Virus record (IMG/VR): IMGVR_UViG_3300017782_000212
Location: 1-24,455 of that record
Source: a virus
Strand: one strand, 5' to 3'
DNA: 24,455 bases
A program made the position numbers and the translations under genes. The notes beneath the pieces were generated by a model, which saw nothing but the letters and a program-made list of their open reading frames with translations, was not told the DNA's origin and did no database searches. This document shows positions 11,482 through 23,082 of this stretch, piece after piece (the stretch's first letter is position 1; every line of letters begins with the position of its first letter).

Positions 11482-13371
11482 TTAATAATTAGTTACTCTA
11501 CCTTTTATATCAGAGTTAGGATATTTTAATTCAAAAATACTAGTATCAAGAGAGGGATATATAACATTATTTATAGTTGCTGAATCAAAGTCATATGAAT
11601 ACGGTGAATATCCTAAGGATATTCCTGCTTTATTATTAATACTAACATATTCTACGTTTTGAACACCAGGTACTTTACCTATAACGTTATATACCTCATT
11701 AATAATAATAGGCTGATTAATTTGCCAGTTATCTATGTCAAAATAATTTTTAAGTGATTGTATACACTCTAAAATTACTTTATTATTATTAAAATCTTTA
11801 AAAGCAGTTATTTCAAAATCAACATTAAAATTAATTATAGCTGCATCCTTAATATTAATAGAATCTGTTAACATTCTATATTGTTCCAGATATGTTATTA
11901 AATTTTGTCTAGTAGCGGCATTAATAGTAGTAAGTTGTTTATTTTTATTTAATCCTAGCACAAATAAATTTAAACCATTAGGATTTTCTATACGGGCAGA
12001 TGAATCAGCAGTAATTTGATCATCTTTAATAACATACGCCTTAGATATACTACCTAATCTTTGGGGCATACTTAAAGTTCTTATAATATAATCTTCTTTA
12101 GATACGGTTCTTAATTGGGCTGCCATATTAGCAGCAGCATTTAGTCTTATATCTTCTAAAGAATCACCAGGCCCACCCCCAGTAGCAGGGATAGGGTTAT
12201 TAACTGCTATTGAACTTACTACATCATCTAATGTAGATTGGGTTAAATTTCCTTGATTAGAACTAGTATTAACTACACCTTTTCGAGTTATAATACCAGT
12301 GTCTATGTTAGATGAAATTCCACCACCTATTAAATAGGTTATGGTTAAGGTTGTGTTAGAAGGAGGCTCACCATAGGCTTTAGTATAAAGAAAATTAGAA
12401 GGATCATATGCAAAATCTATTAAAGATCTTCCATCTCTAACTCCTAAACCAATATTATCTGGGTTAGGAACTATTTCTTCATCAGCGTTTCCACTGATAC
12501 CAGCACCAAATTGAATTTGTAATATATTGTTAGAAGTATATCTAGTTACAAATCTTTTAGGTACTTTTTTTAACCTTAATAGATAAGGAGTATCATTACC
12601 ATATTGTTTTAAGTTAGGATTATTAGCTTCAATATTAGGTACCTGTTCGAATATGGTTTCTTGTGCTAAATAAGGAACCTCAGTCCAATTATTACCATCA
12701 CTATCAACTATGGATTCTATACCTATAATATTAGTGTCATTTAATTCTAAGGTTAGGAATCTTTGTGCATTACCTATTTCAAAAGATTTGGTTTTTAATT
12801 CAGCCGAAATAGCTTTTACGGTTTTTTTAAGAAGATAATATTCTGGATTACTACCATTTAACTGGTGAATTGTAACTGAGGTGGGTGATAAAGAAGAACT
12901 AGTTTGAAAATTTACATCACCTTCTATTAAAAATGATGTACCATTCCCCCCTGCAGTAGTTAAAAAAGATGAATTTTTATTAATAGTTATAGCATAGTCA
13001 TAATCTGGGGCATAAGGGGAATTACCCTTAGCAGGAATTTCTATAAATAAATCTAATTCAGTAGTAGAAGGGGATGATATATTAGGTTTATATCCTAAAG
13101 TATATGCTAATGCTAAAAGGTTAGTTTTTTCCTGAGCAGTTTCTATAAAGGTTTCCTGAATTTGAGTATCAGTATAAAAGGATAATACATCGCCCACGTA
13201 AGCTGCTAATTCTAAGAATATCATACCCGGGTTACTTTCCGAAAAATCATTAAATTGATCAGGAAAATAATTTTTACTAAACTCAATTAAATTTTGTTTT
13301 AATTGGTTGTAATTTTTATTAAGATATTTTATATCTTTTTGTGGGGTATTATTTATTTTAGAATAAGCCAT
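11482..13371 (-). CDS. 6: Baseplate wedge subunit, T4 gp6-like (baseplate J family)
   Basis: A 629-residue protein whose N-terminal part is diagnostic: NLIEFSKNYFPDQFNDFSES, NPGMIFLELAAYVGDVLSFY and TDTQIQETFIETAQEKTNLL closely resemble gp6 of marine T4-like phages. gp6 forms the backbone ring of the baseplate wedge together with gp7 and gp53 in T4. The C-terminal third (about 470-600: RQNLITYLEQYRMLTDSINI, INFNVDFEITAFKDFN, YNVIGKVPGVQNVEYVSINN) matches the usual baseplate-J-like C-terminal layout. The length is close to T4 gp6 (660 residues). The gene starts at 13371, where the upstream gp25 stop overlaps its ATG (TAATG), so the two wedge proteins are probably translated together. No damage or missing segment is seen. 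Confidence 0.88.
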   Translation of the reverse strand: MAYSKINNTPQKDIKYLNKNYNQLKQNLIEFSKNYFPDQFNDFSESNPGMIFLELAAYVGDVLSFYTDTQIQETFIETAQEKTNLLALAYTLGYKPNISSPSTTELDLFIEIPAKGNSPYAPDYDYAITINKNSSFLTTAGGNGTSFLIEGDVNFQTSSSLSPTSVTIHQLNGSNPEYYLLKKTVKAISAELKTKSFEIGNAQRFLTLELNDTNIIGIESIVDSDGNNWTEVPYLAQETIFEQVPNIEANNPNLKQYGNDTPYLLRLKKVPKRFVTRYTSNNILQIQFGAGISGNADEEIVPNPDNIGLGVRDGRSLIDFAYDPSNFLYTKAYGEPPSNTTLTITYLIGGGISSNIDTGIITRKGVVNTSSNQGNLTQSTLDDVVSSIAVNNPIPATGGGPGDSLEDIRLNAAANMAAQLRTVSKEDYIIRTLSMPQRLGSISKAYVIKDDQITADSSARIENPNGLNLFVLGLNKNKQLTTINAATRQNLITYLEQYRMLTDSINIKDAAIINFNVDFEITAFKDFNNNKVILECIQSLKNYFDIDNWQINQPIIINEVYNVIGKVPGVQNVEYVSINNKAGISLGYSPYSYDFDSATINNVIYPSLDTSIFELKYPNSDIKGRVTNY

Positions 13372-13793
13372 TATAATTGTAGGGATATTTGATTAGTATC
13401 ATTATCTAATAATATGGTATAACTTAAGTTAATTAATAAATTATTATTATCTTTAATAGGTGATACTTTTAGATTATTTAATCTTATTTGGGGTATATGT
13501 ACCCCAATTTTTTGGTTAATATATTGTTTAAGCCTAGAAATTTTACTATTAAAATCATCAGTACTTTGTTCAAATAAATAATCTCTTAATCCTACACCAT
13601 AAGTAGGTTCATGAAAACGTTCCCCGGGAGATGTTAAAAGTAAGTTAATTAAATTAGATTTAATTTGATCTTTAGTAGTATAATTAAAATCAAAAATATT
13701 TTTTTTATTAAATGGAACTTTTACCCCTAAAGCCTTACGTGTATTAAGGTCTAGGGGATCTATTCTATATCCTGTTTTTTTAATAATAGCCAT
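13371..13793 (-). CDS. 25: Baseplate wedge / sheath initiator, T4 gp25-like
   Basis: A 140-residue protein of the gp25/W family (the 'GPW/gp25' fold). The signature is clear: LLLTSPGERFHEPTYGVGLR at residues 51-70, followed by DYLFEQ, matching the family pattern 'PGER...P.fG..L...lFE'. gp25 sits at the upper end of the wedge, initiates polymerisation of the contractile sheath and contacts gp6 and gp53. The length fits (T4 gp25 is 132 residues). The gene lies directly before gp6, the order seen in T4-like and P2-like baseplate operons, with TAATG overlaps at both ends. Strong assignment. Its presence is the clearest proof that the phage has a contractile tail. Confidence 0.9.
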   Translation of the reverse strand: MAIIKKTGYRIDPLDLNTRKALGVKVPFNKKNIFDFNYTTKDQIKSNLINLLLTSPGERFHEPTYGVGLRDYLFEQSTDDFNSKISRLKQYINQKIGVHIPQIRLNNLKVSPIKDNNNLLINLSYTILLDNDTNQISLQL

Positions 13794-14170: not shown

Positions 14171-15016
14171 TTAATTTTTAGTTATTTGATATCCAGTGTT
14201 ACCATTTTCACGAAGATATTCAATAAATTTAGGTTTTGAAGATATTTCTAAATTATCTATTACTCTTTCTATATCAAAATTAGAAATAATATTAAAAGTA
14301 GGTGTACCATCAGAAGTAACAACAAGATTAGGATCATTATTTACATTAGATTGAGCTAATACTTGAAGAAGTAAAAGATCAATATCTCTACACCTTGCGG
14401 CCAAAATTACACCTAATTCTGATAATTTATTAGATACTGGTATTAAAATTTCATCTACTTCTTCAGCTACTACTATCAAAGGACCAGCAACACTATTAAA
14501 TACTTTTTGTAGTGCTAATATTTCTTCTAATTTGGCTAATACCCTATCAATAATTTCTTTTTGTTTTATTATAAGAGCACCTGAAACATTACCCCCGGCA
14601 ACCGGAACTGATACTTGTAAAGCTATAATTCCTCTAGCTAACCTTACGATATTTCTAATAAAAGGGACTGTTTGGGATAATGTATTTATAAGTGAGTATA
14701 GGTTATTTAATCTAGTTCTAATTAGGTTAGTTGTATTTAATATATTTTGAACATCCCCTTGGTATTTAAATAGTTGTGATTCTAACTTATGACAGTCCCT
14801 TTTAATTTTTATAAATTTATTTTGGAGACTTAAAAGTTCAGCTTCGGTTTCAATGGTTGAAGATAATATAGCACCAACAACCCCCATTCTAGGGATATTT
14901 GTAGTAATTTGTCCATCAACAAAAGGTACTATTTCTGAAAAATAATAAGTTTTATTTCTAATCTCATTAGTTTTTCTAACCATAGACGATATAGTAGTTT
15001 TAAATGATTCAGTCAT
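14171..15016 (-). CDS. Helical tail/baseplate-module protein, 281 aa
   Basis: I do not recognise the family with confidence. The protein is mostly predicted helix: long runs with heptad-like Leu/Ile spacing occur at about residues 55-120 (ETEAELLSLQNKFIKIKRDC onward) and 150-215 (IKQKEIIDRVLAKLEEILAL onward). A moderately hydrophobic stretch at about 120-150 (NIVRLARGIIALQVSVPVAG) interrupts them. The C-terminal 60 residues (FDIERVIDNLEISSKPKFIE) look globular. The gene follows the split hub gene, with its ATG overlapping the preceding TGA (ATGA), and precedes gp25. Position and helix content suggest a baseplate hub, tail tube or chaperone-type assembly role, but this is inference from context. 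Confidence 0.65.
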   Translation of the reverse strand: MTESFKTTISSMVRKTNEIRNKTYYFSEIVPFVDGQITTNIPRMGVVGAILSSTIETEAELLSLQNKFIKIKRDCHKLESQLFKYQGDVQNILNTTNLIRTRLNNLYSLINTLSQTVPFIRNIVRLARGIIALQVSVPVAGGNVSGALIIKQKEIIDRVLAKLEEILALQKVFNSVAGPLIVVAEEVDEILIPVSNKLSELGVILAARCRDIDLLLLQVLAQSNVNNDPNLVVTSDGTPTFNIISNFDIERVIDNLEISSKPKFIEYLRENGNTGYQITKN

Positions 15017-15474
15017 TTTATGTAAACATTATTACTTTTAATTGTCTTAATCCGTGCCTTTAAAGTATTTAATTCACTTATAAGAGGTGATATTAATGCC
15101 GGGTTTGAAGGGCTGGGAACTGTTGGTGCCCCAGGTACAGTAGTTAACCCATTTAACAATGGTAAAACTGCTGTGTATAGAGTATTAAGGTGGTTTAATA
15201 ACCCTTCTAGTAAATCTTCTAATTCTTTGCCCTTTACTGCAGGGTTATTAGCTAATCCAGGATTACTGTCTTTTATAATACCTAAATGAATTTTAGCACT
15301 GTTTACTGCAAATTTACCATTATTAAGATCATCAGTATTAAAATGAAAATCCTTATTAGTACTAAAAACTACATGACCATTAGAAGTAAGCAAGGAATCC
15401 TCCCTACTATTAAATAATAACCTATCTGAAGTAATTATTACTTGTTTTCCTTGATATTGATTAGGAGATACCAT
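15013..15474 (-). CDS. C-terminal part of a split gp5-like baseplate hub/spike
   Basis: A 153-residue product if the ATG at 15474 is used. I prefer that start because it overlaps the preceding stop as TAATG; the frame is open further to a TTG at 15489, which is less likely. The N-terminal half (VSPNQYQGKQVIITSDRLLF, NSREDSLLTSNGHVVF, KFAVNSAKIHLGI) resembles the beta-rich end of gp5-like hub proteins in marine T4-like phages, where it follows directly on the 'SSIYLTS' region. Residues about 80-153 (LEDLLEGLLNHLNTLYTAVL, SPLISELNTLKARIKTIKSN) match the helical tail of those hubs. Here it is a separate gene directly after the hub-M15 gene. It probably binds to the first hub part to complete the spike; that assembly is inferred. 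Confidence 0.7.
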   Translation of the reverse strand: MVSPNQYQGKQVIITSDRLLFNSREDSLLTSNGHVVFSTNKDFHFNTDDLNNGKFAVNSAKIHLGIIKDSNPGLANNPAVKGKELEDLLEGLLNHLNTLYTAVLPLLNGLTTVPGAPTVPSPSNPALISPLISELNTLKARIKTIKSNNVYIK

Positions 15475-17156
15475 TATACTATATTCCAATTAGGTTCATT
15501 AGGTCCAAATACATCGTTCCAATTATTCTTATCACTACCATAAGTATATGGTAATACAGCTGTTGGACCATTTTTAGCCTGACTTGGGGAATACTTAAAA
15601 TGCCAAGATTCAGATGCTACAACTCTTATAAATCCATATTTCCATCCATTAAAACATAACCAATCAAATTTAGAATTATTCCCACCACCTGTTTGAAAAT
15701 CTATTGCGGTAGAAGCTCCATGACCTGAGGTATACGAGGGTGCTGTTAAAGGAGAGAAGTGTGTTTTTTGAGGACTTAACGTATAAGTATCCCCTATATT
15801 ATATGATATGTCATTAAGAGTAAAGGGAGATGTGACTGTTGTTCTATATAACCATGGTTCAGCTAATTTTCCTTTAAATTTATTTTTTAAATTTTGTACT
15901 CTCAAATCTTTTTGGCTTGTACCTACAATTTTCCCATCTTTATCTATTATATTATTAATAGGAGGTCTAAATCCACTATTAACTGTAAGAGTAACCCCCT
16001 CTGTTTCAGCGGCTAATAACATTTCCATAAGGGGATTAATAAGTAAATCAGTAACAAATCTAAGACCATTTCTTTGGGTAAATCTTTGAGGTATAGCATA
16101 TACTTCTCTTAATCCCCTAGAATTATCTTCATATAATCCCGGGTATTTAGTTAATTCTTCTGGACCTGTATATTCTTCAGGAGAACCAATATCGTCTCTA
16201 TCATTGGATTGGTCATCGGGTCCTGTTTCGTTTTCAATAGAAGTTTCATTATACCCAATACTGTTAGTATTAGGGATTTCGCTTAACCCATATGATTTAA
16301 TAGTATTATTTGCGCTTTCTAATTCATTAAAATTAGCATTTAGACTTTTAAAATTATTGGTAGATAAAGAAATATTAGATATATTTTGATTTGAGGTTAG
16401 ATATATTGAACTTGCATCATTATTTATATCTTCTACAATTATATCGCCATTATTAGTTTGACCATTAGATATAATAGTAATGGGTTCTCCTTCGCTATCA
16501 TTTTCAGACCAAGCATTTTTTCCACGAGGATTAGATGACCCAAATCTAATACTATTACCAAATCGGCCTTCTAAAATCATATCTCCCTCAAAAGGAACCA
16601 TATTTTTTGTATTAGATACTTTATCTTCGTTTATATATTGTCCTAAATCAATTTGTGTTTCTTCCTGCTGGATATTAATATTATTAATACTATTAATATA
16701 TTGATTAACTTTTTTGCCTTTAGTTTTAGTATCACTATCTAATGGTAAAGGATTATATCCACTACTATTCCAAATATTTACAGGGGGAAAGTAATAATAT
16801 TCTGCATTAGAAGTAAAGCCCTGGGTTTGTTCATAATGGTTTTTATTAGGAGCTAATATTAAACTTATAATTTCATTTTTTATAGGAAAATAAGAAAACG
16901 AATTAAAATAAGGTTTAGCTATATTAAGAGTTAATGGGTCTATTTCTTTTTTCCCCTCTTTTAATGCAAGAGACCCCCAAAAAACACATCCTATGTAAGA
17001 CGAATCAAACCCATTTAATTTTTTAGAAAAAAATGGATGTTTATCATCTAATATAATATCAAAAACCCTTCCTATAAAAATAGAAGGAGTATTGGGAGAA
17101 GTAACAGTTCCATTAAAAGATTGTCCTTTAAGACTTTGTAGTTGGTTTCTTGCCAT
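15474..17156 (-). CDS. 5: gp5-like baseplate hub with fused M15 (VanY-type) peptidoglycan peptidase
   Basis: A 560-residue two-part protein. Residues about 1-265 resemble the N-terminal part of gp5-like hubs of marine T4-like phages, most clearly VPFEGDMILEGRFGNSIRFG (187-206), WSENDSEGEPITIISNGQ (216-233) and EDINNDASSIYLTSNQ (242-257). A low-complexity acidic linker follows (about 265-345). Residues 350-535 are a zinc D,D-carboxypeptidase/endopeptidase of the M15 family: SGFRPP at 394-399, SGHGASTAIDF with zinc ligands H479 and D486, and ESWHFKY with the catalytic-type E516 and ligand H519. All four key residues are present, so activity is likely. T4 gp5 carries a lysozyme domain for cutting peptidoglycan during entry; here an M15 peptidase that cuts the peptide stem takes its place. 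It overlaps the upstream small gene by 29 bases. Confidence 0.87.
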   Translation of the reverse strand: MARNQLQSLKGQSFNGTVTSPNTPSIFIGRVFDIILDDKHPFFSKKLNGFDSSYIGCVFWGSLALKEGKKEIDPLTLNIAKPYFNSFSYFPIKNEIISLILAPNKNHYEQTQGFTSNAEYYYFPPVNIWNSSGYNPLPLDSDTKTKGKKVNQYINSINNINIQQEETQIDLGQYINEDKVSNTKNMVPFEGDMILEGRFGNSIRFGSSNPRGKNAWSENDSEGEPITIISNGQTNNGDIIVEDINNDASSIYLTSNQNISNISLSTNNFKSLNANFNELESANNTIKSYGLSEIPNTNSIGYNETSIENETGPDDQSNDRDDIGSPEEYTGPEELTKYPGLYEDNSRGLREVYAIPQRFTQRNGLRFVTDLLINPLMEMLLAAETEGVTLTVNSGFRPPINNIIDKDGKIVGTSQKDLRVQNLKNKFKGKLAEPWLYRTTVTSPFTLNDISYNIGDTYTLSPQKTHFSPLTAPSYTSGHGASTAIDFQTGGGNNSKFDWLCFNGWKYGFIRVVASESWHFKYSPSQAKNGPTAVLPYTYGSDKNNWNDVFGPNEPNWNIV

Positions 17157-17507: not shown

Positions 17508-18200
17508 TTATAGAACTATTGGTTTTCCAGATTCCCACTGTCCATAGGCCTTAATATAATATTTTTTAAGGACCTTAGTTACTTTAGTAATAGCAGGTGT
17601 ATCACATCCCGTAATCTCACGAATATAAATATAAAGTGCTTTTTTGTTAAATATTTCTAAAGATTCTCTTTTTTTAAAAAGAGTTAAGACCGCATCAGCT
17701 ACTTTTAAATCATCCTGTTTATTAAAAAAAACATGCAATTTACGATCAACTTTATCTATAAAAAGGTCTAAAAATTCTACTTTTTCTTTTAGCCTTTCTT
17801 TATTTTCCATAGTGTTTAATACACCATTATCAGTATCAGCTTCTAGTAAATCTACTTTAGCTTTCTTTTTAGCATAATTCTTATTATTATATAATATAAG
17901 ATAATTTTTTCCTACTATACTAAAATAAGAAAAAGCTTTTCCTTTCCCAACTTTAAAATAATGTAATTTTTCTAACAGAAATGTTACAACTTCATGTTTT
18001 AAATCCTCTAAGTCTTCAACCTCAGTATAATAAAACTTAAAAGTATGAATAAGATTTTCAGCTAATTTATAAAAGGAATAATGGATCCTTGAATTGTAGA
18101 TTTTATTTCTTTCACTTTGATCTTCACTAGCTAAATATTCTACAATTGCTAGTTCGGTATCCTCTGTAAAATACAGTCTTTTGCTTTTTTTTCGGGGCAT
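17508..18200 (-). CDS. 55: Late-transcription sigma factor, T4 gp55-like
   Basis: A 230-residue protein closely resembling gp55 of marine T4-like phages. Recognisable parts are FTEDTELAIVEYLASEDQSE (11-30), IYNSRIHYSFYKLAENLIHT (34-53), FKFYYTEVEDLEDLKHEVVT (54-73) and KGKAFSYFSIVGKNYLILYN (86-105). The last two correspond to sigma region 2-type helices for core RNA polymerase and -10 DNA binding. The C-terminal part (about 185-222, TGCDTPAITKVTKVLKKYYI) is helical and may be helix-turn-helix-like. gp55 redirects host RNA polymerase to late promoters and in T4 is linked to the sliding clamp through a short hydrophobic C-terminal motif; I see no obvious such motif in the final residues GQWESGKPIVL. 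It is longer than T4 gp55 (185 residues). It lies upstream of the baseplate genes that it presumably activates. Confidence 0.85.
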   Translation of the reverse strand: MPRKKSKRLYFTEDTELAIVEYLASEDQSERNKIYNSRIHYSFYKLAENLIHTFKFYYTEVEDLEDLKHEVVTFLLEKLHYFKVGKGKAFSYFSIVGKNYLILYNNKNYAKKKAKVDLLEADTDNGVLNTMENKERLKEKVEFLDLFIDKVDRKLHVFFNKQDDLKVADAVLTLFKKRESLEIFNKKALYIYIREITGCDTPAITKVTKVLKKYYIKAYGQWESGKPIVL

Positions 18201-21945: not shown

Positions 21946-22674
21946 TTACAAAGGCTCATGCTTAAAGTTTTTAATAATAAAATCTGAGTAATTTTCTTTG
22001 GTTACATCTACTTCTTTAGTTACATGATTATTAATGATAACATTCATTGAATGTCCTTTGAAATATTGTAATAAATCTTTAGGTAAAGATCTTACAGCCT
22101 TTCCATTATAGAAAATAGTAATTTCATCTTCTAAGTACTTAAGACCATATTTAATAAAATTAGTAGCGGGGTTTTTAAAACCAAAAAAATGTGTTTTTGC
22201 TTTAACATTGGCATTTTTACTAGTTTTAATATCTTTATAATGAAAATTCGAGTTTAAATTATAAAATCCAAAGGGGTTAAAACGATTAAATTTTAAATAT
22301 CCTTTACGATTATCAGTATAACCTTCAAAAACATCTATTTCTGGAGGCCATCCTTCCCAACTCCACATCCAGAATGCGGGCCATAAATTTTCTCCTAAAG
22401 GTAATTTAGCTTCTATTTCATAATAACCATACCCAAATTTTTCTTTAGATGAAATTAAACCTACTCCTATAGGAGATTCAATAACGGTTTGTTGATCACC
22501 CTGTCTGATTTTAAATTTTTTGGGCTCTTTTTTAGTTAAAAGATGTAAATATTTATAGTTATCTATAAAAACACAACTGGGATTATAATAACAATAAAGC
22601 TTATCAGCATGGACATTACCCCACCTTTCTCTAGTTATCCACTCGTAACCTGACCAATTAATAGTTTTATGCAT
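21946..22674 (-). CDS. Glycoside hydrolase family 16 (laminarinase-type beta-glucanase)
   Basis: A 242-residue protein with a clear GH16 core. The active-site motif is E112-I-D114-V-F-E117 in PPEIDVFEGY, the ExDxxE form typical of laminarinases, agarases and carrageenases; E112 would be the nucleophile and E117 the acid/base. Just before it, ENLWPAFWMWSWEGWP (95-110) is the usual substrate-cleft stretch, and GYGYYEIEAKLPLG (81-94) is the family's early strand. The C-terminal strands (YLEDEITIFYNGKAVRSLPK) fit the jelly roll, so the domain is complete. There is no signal peptide or membrane anchor, so the enzyme would act inside the cell, be built into the virion, or be freed at lysis. Likely substrate is a beta-1,3-glucan or a related marine or host polysaccharide; this is inference. 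Confidence 0.88.
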   Translation of the reverse strand: MHKTINWSGYEWITRERWGNVHADKLYCYYNPSCVFIDNYKYLHLLTKKEPKKFKIRQGDQQTVIESPIGVGLISSKEKFGYGYYEIEAKLPLGENLWPAFWMWSWEGWPPEIDVFEGYTDNRKGYLKFNRFNPFGFYNLNSNFHYKDIKTSKNANVKAKTHFFGFKNPATNFIKYGLKYLEDEITIFYNGKAVRSLPKDLLQYFKGHSMNVIINNHVTKEVDVTKENYSDFIIKNFKHEPL

Positions 22675-22701: not shown

Positions 22702-23082
22702 TTATCTTTTTCCCCCATGATATTCAACAGCATGTCCTTCTTTAATTAATTGTTGATTAACATTAATTAATGTTATACCATCACTACCATTTAGGGGGGA
22801 AATTGAATCAACTAAAACCGTAGCTATAGCCCTCCCAAACTTTCCTACACCCGAAACTTTTAATACACACTTATTATTATTACATTCTAGGATTTCTACT
22901 AATCTATCTTTAGCGGCAAGGCCTAATTTTTTTTCTTCTAAATCTCTTGTTCTCGATTCAGGGGTATTAATACCCGCCATTCGAACTCTTATTTTTTTCC
23001 AGGTTTTAAAACCTAAATCAATAGTACAATCGATAGTATCACCATCAACTACTTTATCTACTATTGCTTTGTATTCATACAT
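22702..23082 (-). CDS. Thermonuclease / staphylococcal-nuclease-like (SNase) protein
   Basis: A 126-residue OB-fold nuclease of the SNase family. Key residues align well with the classical enzyme: D13-G-D15-T in VVDGDTID (metal site), R34 and E42 in RVRMAGINTPES (catalytic Arg35 and Glu43 equivalents), and R84 in GKFGRAIA (Arg87 equivalent). One calcium ligand position, Asp40, is Asn39 here. The C-terminal LINVNQQLIKEGHAVEYHGG matches the family's closing helix. It has no signal peptide, so it probably acts in the host cytoplasm, for example in host DNA or RNA breakdown, or is released on lysis. It follows the membrane protein with overlapping TAATG and precedes the GH16 gene by 27 bases. Confidence 0.88.
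   Translation of the reverse strand: MYEYKAIVDKVVDGDTIDCTIDLGFKTWKKIRVRMAGINTPESRTRDLEEKKLGLAAKDRLVEILECNNNKCVLKVSGVGKFGRAIATVLVDSISPLNGSDGITLINVNQQLIKEGHAVEYHGGKR

Follow-up and report, generated by a model that had tools for sequence, protein, structure and literature searches.

A contractile-tail spike probably encoded in two pieces, with an exchangeable cell-wall hydrolase at the break, in uncultured phages

The virus sequence IMGVR_UViG_3300017782_000212 of IMG/VR (24,455 nucleotides, analysed over its whole length and referred to below as the window) carries two adjoining minus-strand genes, A and B, which together probably encode one central spike of the gp5 type known from contractile tails, broken at a fixed position where an exchangeable cell-wall hydrolase is placed. 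Alignment shows that relatives have a single protein whose first half corresponds to A and whose second half corresponds to B. The M15 peptidase predicted at the end of A is only one among several kinds of filling that replace each other at this junction, which a single window could not reveal. An original prediction, made from the DNA letters of the window, had described the locus as a baseplate hub split around an inserted peptidase; the protein is better called a spike. The components of this two-gene arrangement are as follows.

15474..17156, minus strand: gene A, 560 residues, putative spike N-piece, acidic linker and M15 peptidase (open reading frame (ORF) list, alignment to unsplit spikes)
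16374..17156, minus strand: putative spike N-piece, residues ~1-261, OB-type barrel then four strands (AlphaFold2 (AF2) model, VIA-align)
16152..16373, minus strand: acidic linker, residues ~262-335, of low confidence (composition 20% D+E, 4% K+R; predicted local distance difference test, pLDDT)
15549..16151, minus strand: predicted VanY/LdcB-like M15 zinc peptidase domain, residues ~336-536 (Pfam VanY, VIA-align, zinc-site residues)
15472..15476, minus strand: TAATG stop/start overlap leading from gene A to gene B (sequence; same overlap in loci L003, L004 and L005)
15013..15474, minus strand: gene B, 153 residues, putative spike C-piece (ORF, alignment to C-terminal halves of unsplit spikes, hidden Markov model (HMM) matches)
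15280..15474, minus strand: gene B residues 1-65, putative needle continuation (GKQVIITSDRLLFN ... KIHLG) (alignment)
15016..15279, minus strand: gene B residues 66-153, predicted to hold the C-terminal helices (corresponding stretch of the unsplit model)

One spike gene in two pieces

The ORFs and their overlap are as the original prediction described them, with A running to 560 residues and the ATG of B lying inside TAATG at 15474; the ORF list gives B a longer version of 158 residues, read from an upstream TTG at 15489. Residues 29-259 of A align to residues 28-223 of Flavobacterium phage immuto gp116 (KNV73_gp116, YP_010114567.1; 31%, E 2e-18), a single protein of 378 residues, and residues 2-94 of B align to its residues 240-326 (30%, E 4e-11). 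The unsplit contig spike L047 is covered in the same manner, by A 26-259 over positions 25-250 (40%, 5e-44) and by B 4-113 over positions 272-378 (32%, 1e-11). In both proteins the two alignments are serial and non-overlapping, separated by 16 residues in immuto and 21 in L047, and 18 columns, including Y7, G9, Q11, R18, N22 and G65, are invariant across the C-halves of four split and two unsplit sequences. The fission of one spike gene, with the second piece as its expected continuation, is supported by this order of matches; B proves to be related to the remainder of the spike, and both full-length relatives, immuto and L047, contain a B-like part.

Split and unsplit forms were surveyed in loci drawn from IMG/VR scans with several queries and from three phage records. 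Without L192, which is the window's own copy, these amount to 270 loci: 79 split, 117 unsplit, 19 partial and 55 duplicate entries. The duplicates and partial loci were dropped, so that the counts below refer to the split and unsplit entries, all of them non-redundant. Since loci were gathered by similarity, with at most the best 80 taken per scan, the frequencies are not population estimates. In split loci gene B lies downstream of gene A, even where other genes stand between them.

The same split and the same TAATG recur in L003, L004 and L005 at 75-81% protein identity, and the split is for this reason neither a chance event nor an assembly error, the pseudogene reading falling with it; the counterparts of gene A are conserved in these three loci and more distant in L040 and L041. 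The broader suspicion, that a sequencing error, an assembly artefact or gene decay accidentally broke a fused gene, draws on the window being a 24,455-base virus record that is possibly a fragment, and on the pair L189 and L048 described below, in which an M15_3 enzyme is broken off in one locus and fused in the other, showing that single loci can mislead. It is nevertheless hardly credible, given that the same break occurs in 79 non-redundant loci, that TAATG and the zinc-site residues of the peptidase are kept, and that no fused OB-enzyme-needle ORF occurs among the 117 unsplit spikes.

A different possibility is that programmed frameshifting or readthrough joins A and B into a single polypeptide, so that the enzyme would be internal, as in T4 before cleavage. 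The 53 of 79 split loci that have no ORF between the two genes would suit such a mechanism, the first ATG of B lying -14 to +15 bases from the first base of the stop codon of A. In these same loci, however, the first ATG of B falls in all three frames relative to that stop (29, 14 and 10 of 53), with TAATG forming the junction in 21 of 53, which argues against a programmed fusion and is the ground on which frameshifting was rejected, and in the other 26 of 79 at least one ORF separates A from B, excluding simple fusion there. Synthesis as one chain is accordingly considered very improbable.

It could also be that B stands outside the needle, the A trimer alone forming a short, blunt spike and B serving as a separate tip or adaptor. 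Short spikes can work, as illustrated by some phages of S-layer bacteria whose spikes have no beta-helix according to the available part of PMC11948020. Against this, B keeps the C-half positions of unsplit spikes (the 18 invariant columns noted above) and retains its place downstream of A even with intervening genes, so that this alternative appears unlikely, and B is better read as the continuation of the spike.

Close relatives of the window spike in named phages were sought by tblastn of a phages collection, in which the only matched records were four of immuto, that of Microcystis phage Mel-JY01 and one from an uncultured phage that carries no annotation. The kinship with marine T4-like phages that had originally been proposed found no backing in this search, as neither pelagiphages nor marine T4-like cyanophages were among the matches, and that comparison group was therefore not recovered by sequence. 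Searching named phages with gene B by tblastn gave nothing useful, PHROGs and NCBIfam searches of the spike pieces returned no informative family, and a scan of genome contigs with a gene B profile gave 338 pattern matches, 0 of them confirmed.

Predicted structure and the place of the break

The AF2 model of gene A (mean pLDDT 63.8) has an OB-type barrel with five strands at 27-125 and four more strands at 193-254, after which the low-confidence linker begins. Comparison by VIA-align paired residues 22-264 of A with residues 6-439 of T4 gp5 (1k28; Z 5.0, root-mean-square deviation (rmsd) 5.0, 152 aligned), the aligned ends extending past the T4 lysozyme into the T4 helix, and placed a P1 baseplate chain, P2 gpV, VgrG and T4 gp5 among the neighbours of the N-piece; 13 of the 50 rows shown were chains of contractile systems (Z 4.8-5.7). 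The unsplit immuto spike (pLDDT 71.5) gave a comparable picture, with 12 of 50 rows shown belonging to contractile systems (Z 5.7-6.7). Six of these 12 titles name a spike, VgrG, gpV or gp5, and the other six, which name only a baseplate or injection system, are spikes by our reading.

Beyond the four strands of gene A, the strands of the needle are visible in single-chain models only as two short, low-confidence elements at 249-260 of the unsplit model, in the region homologous to the start of gene B, while helices at 314-336 and 347-369 of the same model fall in the region homologous to its C-terminal part. The available part of PMC4576200 delimits the T4 gp5 domains as 1-129, 174-339 and 389-575, with the first four strands of the helix at 389-427. 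Set against these boundaries, the break seems to follow the four strands that come after the OB fold, close to where the part matching the intertwined beta-helix of T4 begins, and on these models gene B would be left as a unit able to trimerise by itself. The architecture thus looks distinct from that of T4, as had been foreseen, since the predicted break follows four strands past the OB fold and the T4 lysozyme precedes the beta-helix.

The M15 domain and its linker

The C-terminal domain of gene A is predicted, from its sequence and model, to be a VanY/LdcB-like M15 peptidase that would cleave the stem peptides of peptidoglycan. By VIA-align the model matches 4jid_B (Z 10.1, rmsd 3.8, 140 aligned), 4mph (Z 10.0) and VanYB 5hnm (Z 9.3), and the Pfam VanY score of the homologue L040 (25.9) exceeds the cutoff. 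Residues H479, D486, E516 and H519 are identical in seven of seven M15-type sequences, a set that includes the window and L001, a near-copy of it, and lie in a motif, SxHxxxxAxD ... ExWH, which we take to hold the zinc site (H479, D486, H519) and the catalytic glutamate (E516). The fold match and the conservation of all four residues agree with the complete M15 peptidase originally described. Its supposed position as an insert within the hub needs correction, however, as the domain occupies the end of gene A. It is reached through a linker for which pLDDT is below 50 over residues 261-329.

Fillings of the junction

In the 117 unsplit spikes the stretch between the two halves measures 14-41 residues, and 0 of 117 match hydrolase HMMs between the halves. 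By comparison, 63 of 79 split loci have a hydrolase HMM match, either in an extension of gene A or in an ORF between A and B; the HMMs for M15_3, Ami2, X700 and X800 were derived from sequences within this locus set, and Pfam exceeded its cutoff for 14 of the 19 insert proteins tested. Most frequent is M15_3 as a separate ORF (23/79), followed by Amidase_2 fused to A (17/79), M15_3 fused to A (16/79) and the window's own type, M15/VanY fused to A (6/79). An Amidase_2-like separate ORF occurs once (L078), a doubtful case in which the Ami2 label is our own reading and Pfam gave no match. Fillings of unknown family are fused in three loci (two of one kind, one other) and separate in two. With most split loci carrying other fillings, the split is ruled out as a peculiarity of the M15 group. 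The linkers of fused M15_3 and Amidase_2 loci, measurable in 29 of 33 (the rest being cut or short), have a median length of 135 residues and a composition of 21% D+E, 3% K+R and 10% P.

Lysin HMMs applied elsewhere in the 49 unsplit and 12 split stretches without a recognised lysin gave 0 matches, the unsplit loci found later standing outside this search. One unsplit spike, L195, has a C-terminal tail of 359 residues, for which there was no Pfam match.

Some fillings are large (L044:2593-5004, L052:3081-5474; L053:2140-4350, L077:6053-8080; L101:1116-2819), being extensions of ~550 and ~290 residues and separate ORFs of 676-737 residues. Those of L044, L053, L077 and L101 gave no clear Pfam or NCBIfam family, and those of L044, L077 and L101 no clear PHROGs family. 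In those encoded as separate ORFs, stretches of the WLFC ... GHIG kind look, by eye, like parts of NlpC/CHAP cysteine peptidases. Among loci with a separate M15_3, gene A extends 114-199 residues past the spike profile in L046, L049, L051, L054, L067, L071 and L099, with a tail that looks acidic by eye and may be a docking tail for the separate enzyme; this tail is only 21 residues long in L147, L153 and L180. L189 and L048 have hubs that are identical in the tree columns, yet the M15_3 that L048 has fused to A is broken off as an ORF of its own in L189, which is either a recent change or a sequencing error.

History of the split

A tree of the joined halves was built from 116 rows, loci cut by contig ends being excluded, with the root placed by us on L007 and L008. 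Split and unsplit forms are separated on it by one branch, that is, by one change (SH-aLRT 99), and this single branch is found again after removal of 13 long or odd rows (103 rows; 98) and on FastTree trees of the N-halves or C-halves alone. T4 gp5, P2 gpV and VgrG are each synthesised as one chain, so that the unsplit form is the likely ancestral state; we infer fission rather than fusion.

If 'none' is counted as a state, the fillings require at least seven changes of kind inside the split clade. A single clade uniting the fused-amidase rows with the four enzyme-free rows L100, L121, L127 and L136 was rejected (p-AU, the approximately unbiased test, 0.0074, L078 left out), on a quick tree and with groups named after the tree was seen, as holds for both tests of an amidase clade; on account of this rejection the enzymes appear to have been exchanged while the spike stayed. 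The four enzyme-free rows stand among amidase carriers and keep a linker stump of 83-88 residues, which looks like enzyme loss.

The original prediction had the fission caused by the acquisition of a lytic domain, which would have inserted into an intact gene and thereby broken it. Consistent with this order of events, every spike with a junction filling, known or unknown, is split (68 split, 0/117 unsplit), the enzyme-free split groups, including that of the L061 type, are nested in the split clade on the best trees, and the four stump-bearing rows lie among amidase carriers. On the other side, the AU test does not reject a tree in which the L061-type group branches off basally, before every other split row (p-AU 0.185), so that the split may have come first, and no fused intermediate appears among the 117 unsplit spikes. 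Given this result, the single split branch and the later changes of enzyme, the causal claim is not established; we would give an insertion that broke the gene slightly less than an even chance.

Comparison with known systems

Spikes of the gp5 type, M15 peptidases and amidases are known kinds of protein, and hydrolases at the hub or spike are likewise already known, from T4 and, in the available part of PMC10966104, from Anabaena phage A-1(L). As in T4 gp5, an OB fold precedes a needle and a peptidoglycan hydrolase sits in mid-spike, although T4 gp5 shows no sequence match to the window spike. The available part of PMC3004832 places the cleavage of T4 gp5 between lysozyme and helix, at Ser351-Ala352, with the parts staying together as (gp27-gp5*-gp5C)3; as long as gp5C is part of the trimer, lysozyme activity is only 10% of the monomer's, and the enzyme is believed to be released once the helix is lost. 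Each spike subunit would in both systems consist of two polypeptides, in T4 gp5* and gp5C after cleavage of one precursor, here two chains predicted from two separate ORFs. The enzyme is predicted to be M15, M15_3 or amidase in place of lysozyme, and the modelled M15 domain closes gene A, with four strands between it and the OB fold, unlike the T4 lysozyme, which by the published domain boundaries lies between the OB fold and the helix.

The unsplit homologues in immuto and in Mel-JY01 (WWT39504.1) differ from the window spike in being one chain with no junction enzyme, and both are annotated 'hypothetical protein'. The immuto neighbourhood resembles that of the window, with genes for a 'baseplate assembly protein' and a 'baseplate wedge protein' following after two further genes. 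In Mel-JY01 (L007:5331-6362) a 'putative chitinase' gene directly follows the unsplit spike; it gave no Pfam match at E 0.1.

The spikes of P2 (gpV), VgrG, PVC, P1, Mu and injection systems are known as single chains. Chains from all of these are structural neighbours of the modelled N-piece and unsplit spike, and no title among the matches listed describes a split spike with an enzyme at the junction. The VanY and LdcB carboxypeptidases share with the M15 domain its predicted fold and zinc-site residues, and differ in that the present domain would hang on a tail spike. In A-1(L) the contractile-tail spike (gp25) is likewise accompanied by hydrolases at the hub (gp15), with peptidase and endoglucanase activity shown, and, as far as the available part of PMC10966104 goes, these enzymes belong to the hub protein around the spike and not to a break in the spike itself. 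Titles and abstract openings of the literature searched, which excluded bioRxiv and most subscription journals, contained no split gp5-type spike with an exchangeable enzyme.

Proposed assembly and function

Ribosomes finishing A would restart on B through the TAATG overlap, producing two chains from the outset. Three A chains would form the collar and the base of the needle and three B chains the needle itself, with three peptidases hanging beside it on flexible acidic tethers. Tail contraction would drive the spike into the periplasm and bring the peptidases to the wall, where they would cut the stem peptides of peptidoglycan and so open a way for the tube; B may detach, as is assumed for gp5C in T4. 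With the chain split, an enzyme could hang from a free C-terminus in mid-needle, with no threading through the trimer, and its exchange would be easier. We lean modestly towards the fuller proposal that the needle consists of two proteins (3+3) and that, in an uncultured phage clade, its seam is a standing docking port for peptidoglycan hydrolases, at which M15, M15_3, amidase and further domains of no recognised family are swapped, fused or separate, on an unchanging spike, in place of the cleaved internal lysozyme of T4.

Should this be true, an intertwined contractile-tail needle could be built from two chains placed end to end, the seam being the point at which entry enzymes are exchanged, and the clade would offer a natural experiment on how phages match such an enzyme to the wall of the host. 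A function is also proposed for spike proteins that are annotated 'hypothetical protein' in two annotated relatives, and a structural question, how the prism continues across a chain break, becomes testable.

Several observations weigh against this interpretation. The spike fold matches are modest (Z 4.8-6.7) and tied with unrelated OB-fold rows, the underlying models are middling (pLDDT 63.8 for gene A, 71.5 for immuto), Foldseek against the PDB gave no match at E <= 0.001 for either model, and sequence-profile searches of the PDB up to E 1 matched no solved spike, though this family of gp5 type may simply lie too far away for such a match. The Pfam VanY score of the window is 21.1 bits, under the cutoff of 25. 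The filling is a separate ORF in 26 of 79 split loci, in which its attachment to the spike is purely something we infer, and 11 of 79 have no enzyme, so that a spike can be split in the absence of one. When a single amidase clade was rejected more strongly (6e-83), the result hung on the doubtful row L078. Finally, one match in BFVD bears the name 'Glycoside hydrolase, family 19' (549 residues, E 1.6e-8, query TM-score (TMq) 0.26); it is possibly a spike of the unsplit form joined to a different hydrolase, a hint that hydrolases may be attached to unsplit spikes in other branches.

Neighbouring genes

The spike genes sit in a baseplate gene block of contractile-tail type, gene B being followed, in this order, by a 281-residue protein, a small protein, and the gp25-like and gp6-like wedge genes.

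14171..15016, minus strand: downstream neighbour, 281 residues (context)
13371..13793, minus strand: gp25-like baseplate wedge (Pfam PF04965, E 5.9e-12; PHROG 261)
11482..13371, minus strand: gp6-like baseplate wedge (PHROG 219, E 1.2e-19)

In each of the 14 split loci listed, gene B is followed by an ORF of 266-386 residues, position alone being compared. Upstream of the spike, at 17508-18200 (minus strand), a protein of 230 residues has a weak likeness to sigma-70 (NCBIfam TIGR02937, E 0.024, far under the cutoff) and by eye resembles late sigma factors of the T4 gp55 type. Also on the minus strand are a glycosyl hydrolase family 16 protein at 21946-22674 (Pfam E 1.4e-10), for which beta-glucan polysaccharides are a possible target, and a staphylococcal-nuclease-like protein at 22702-23082 (Pfam E 5.7e-10).

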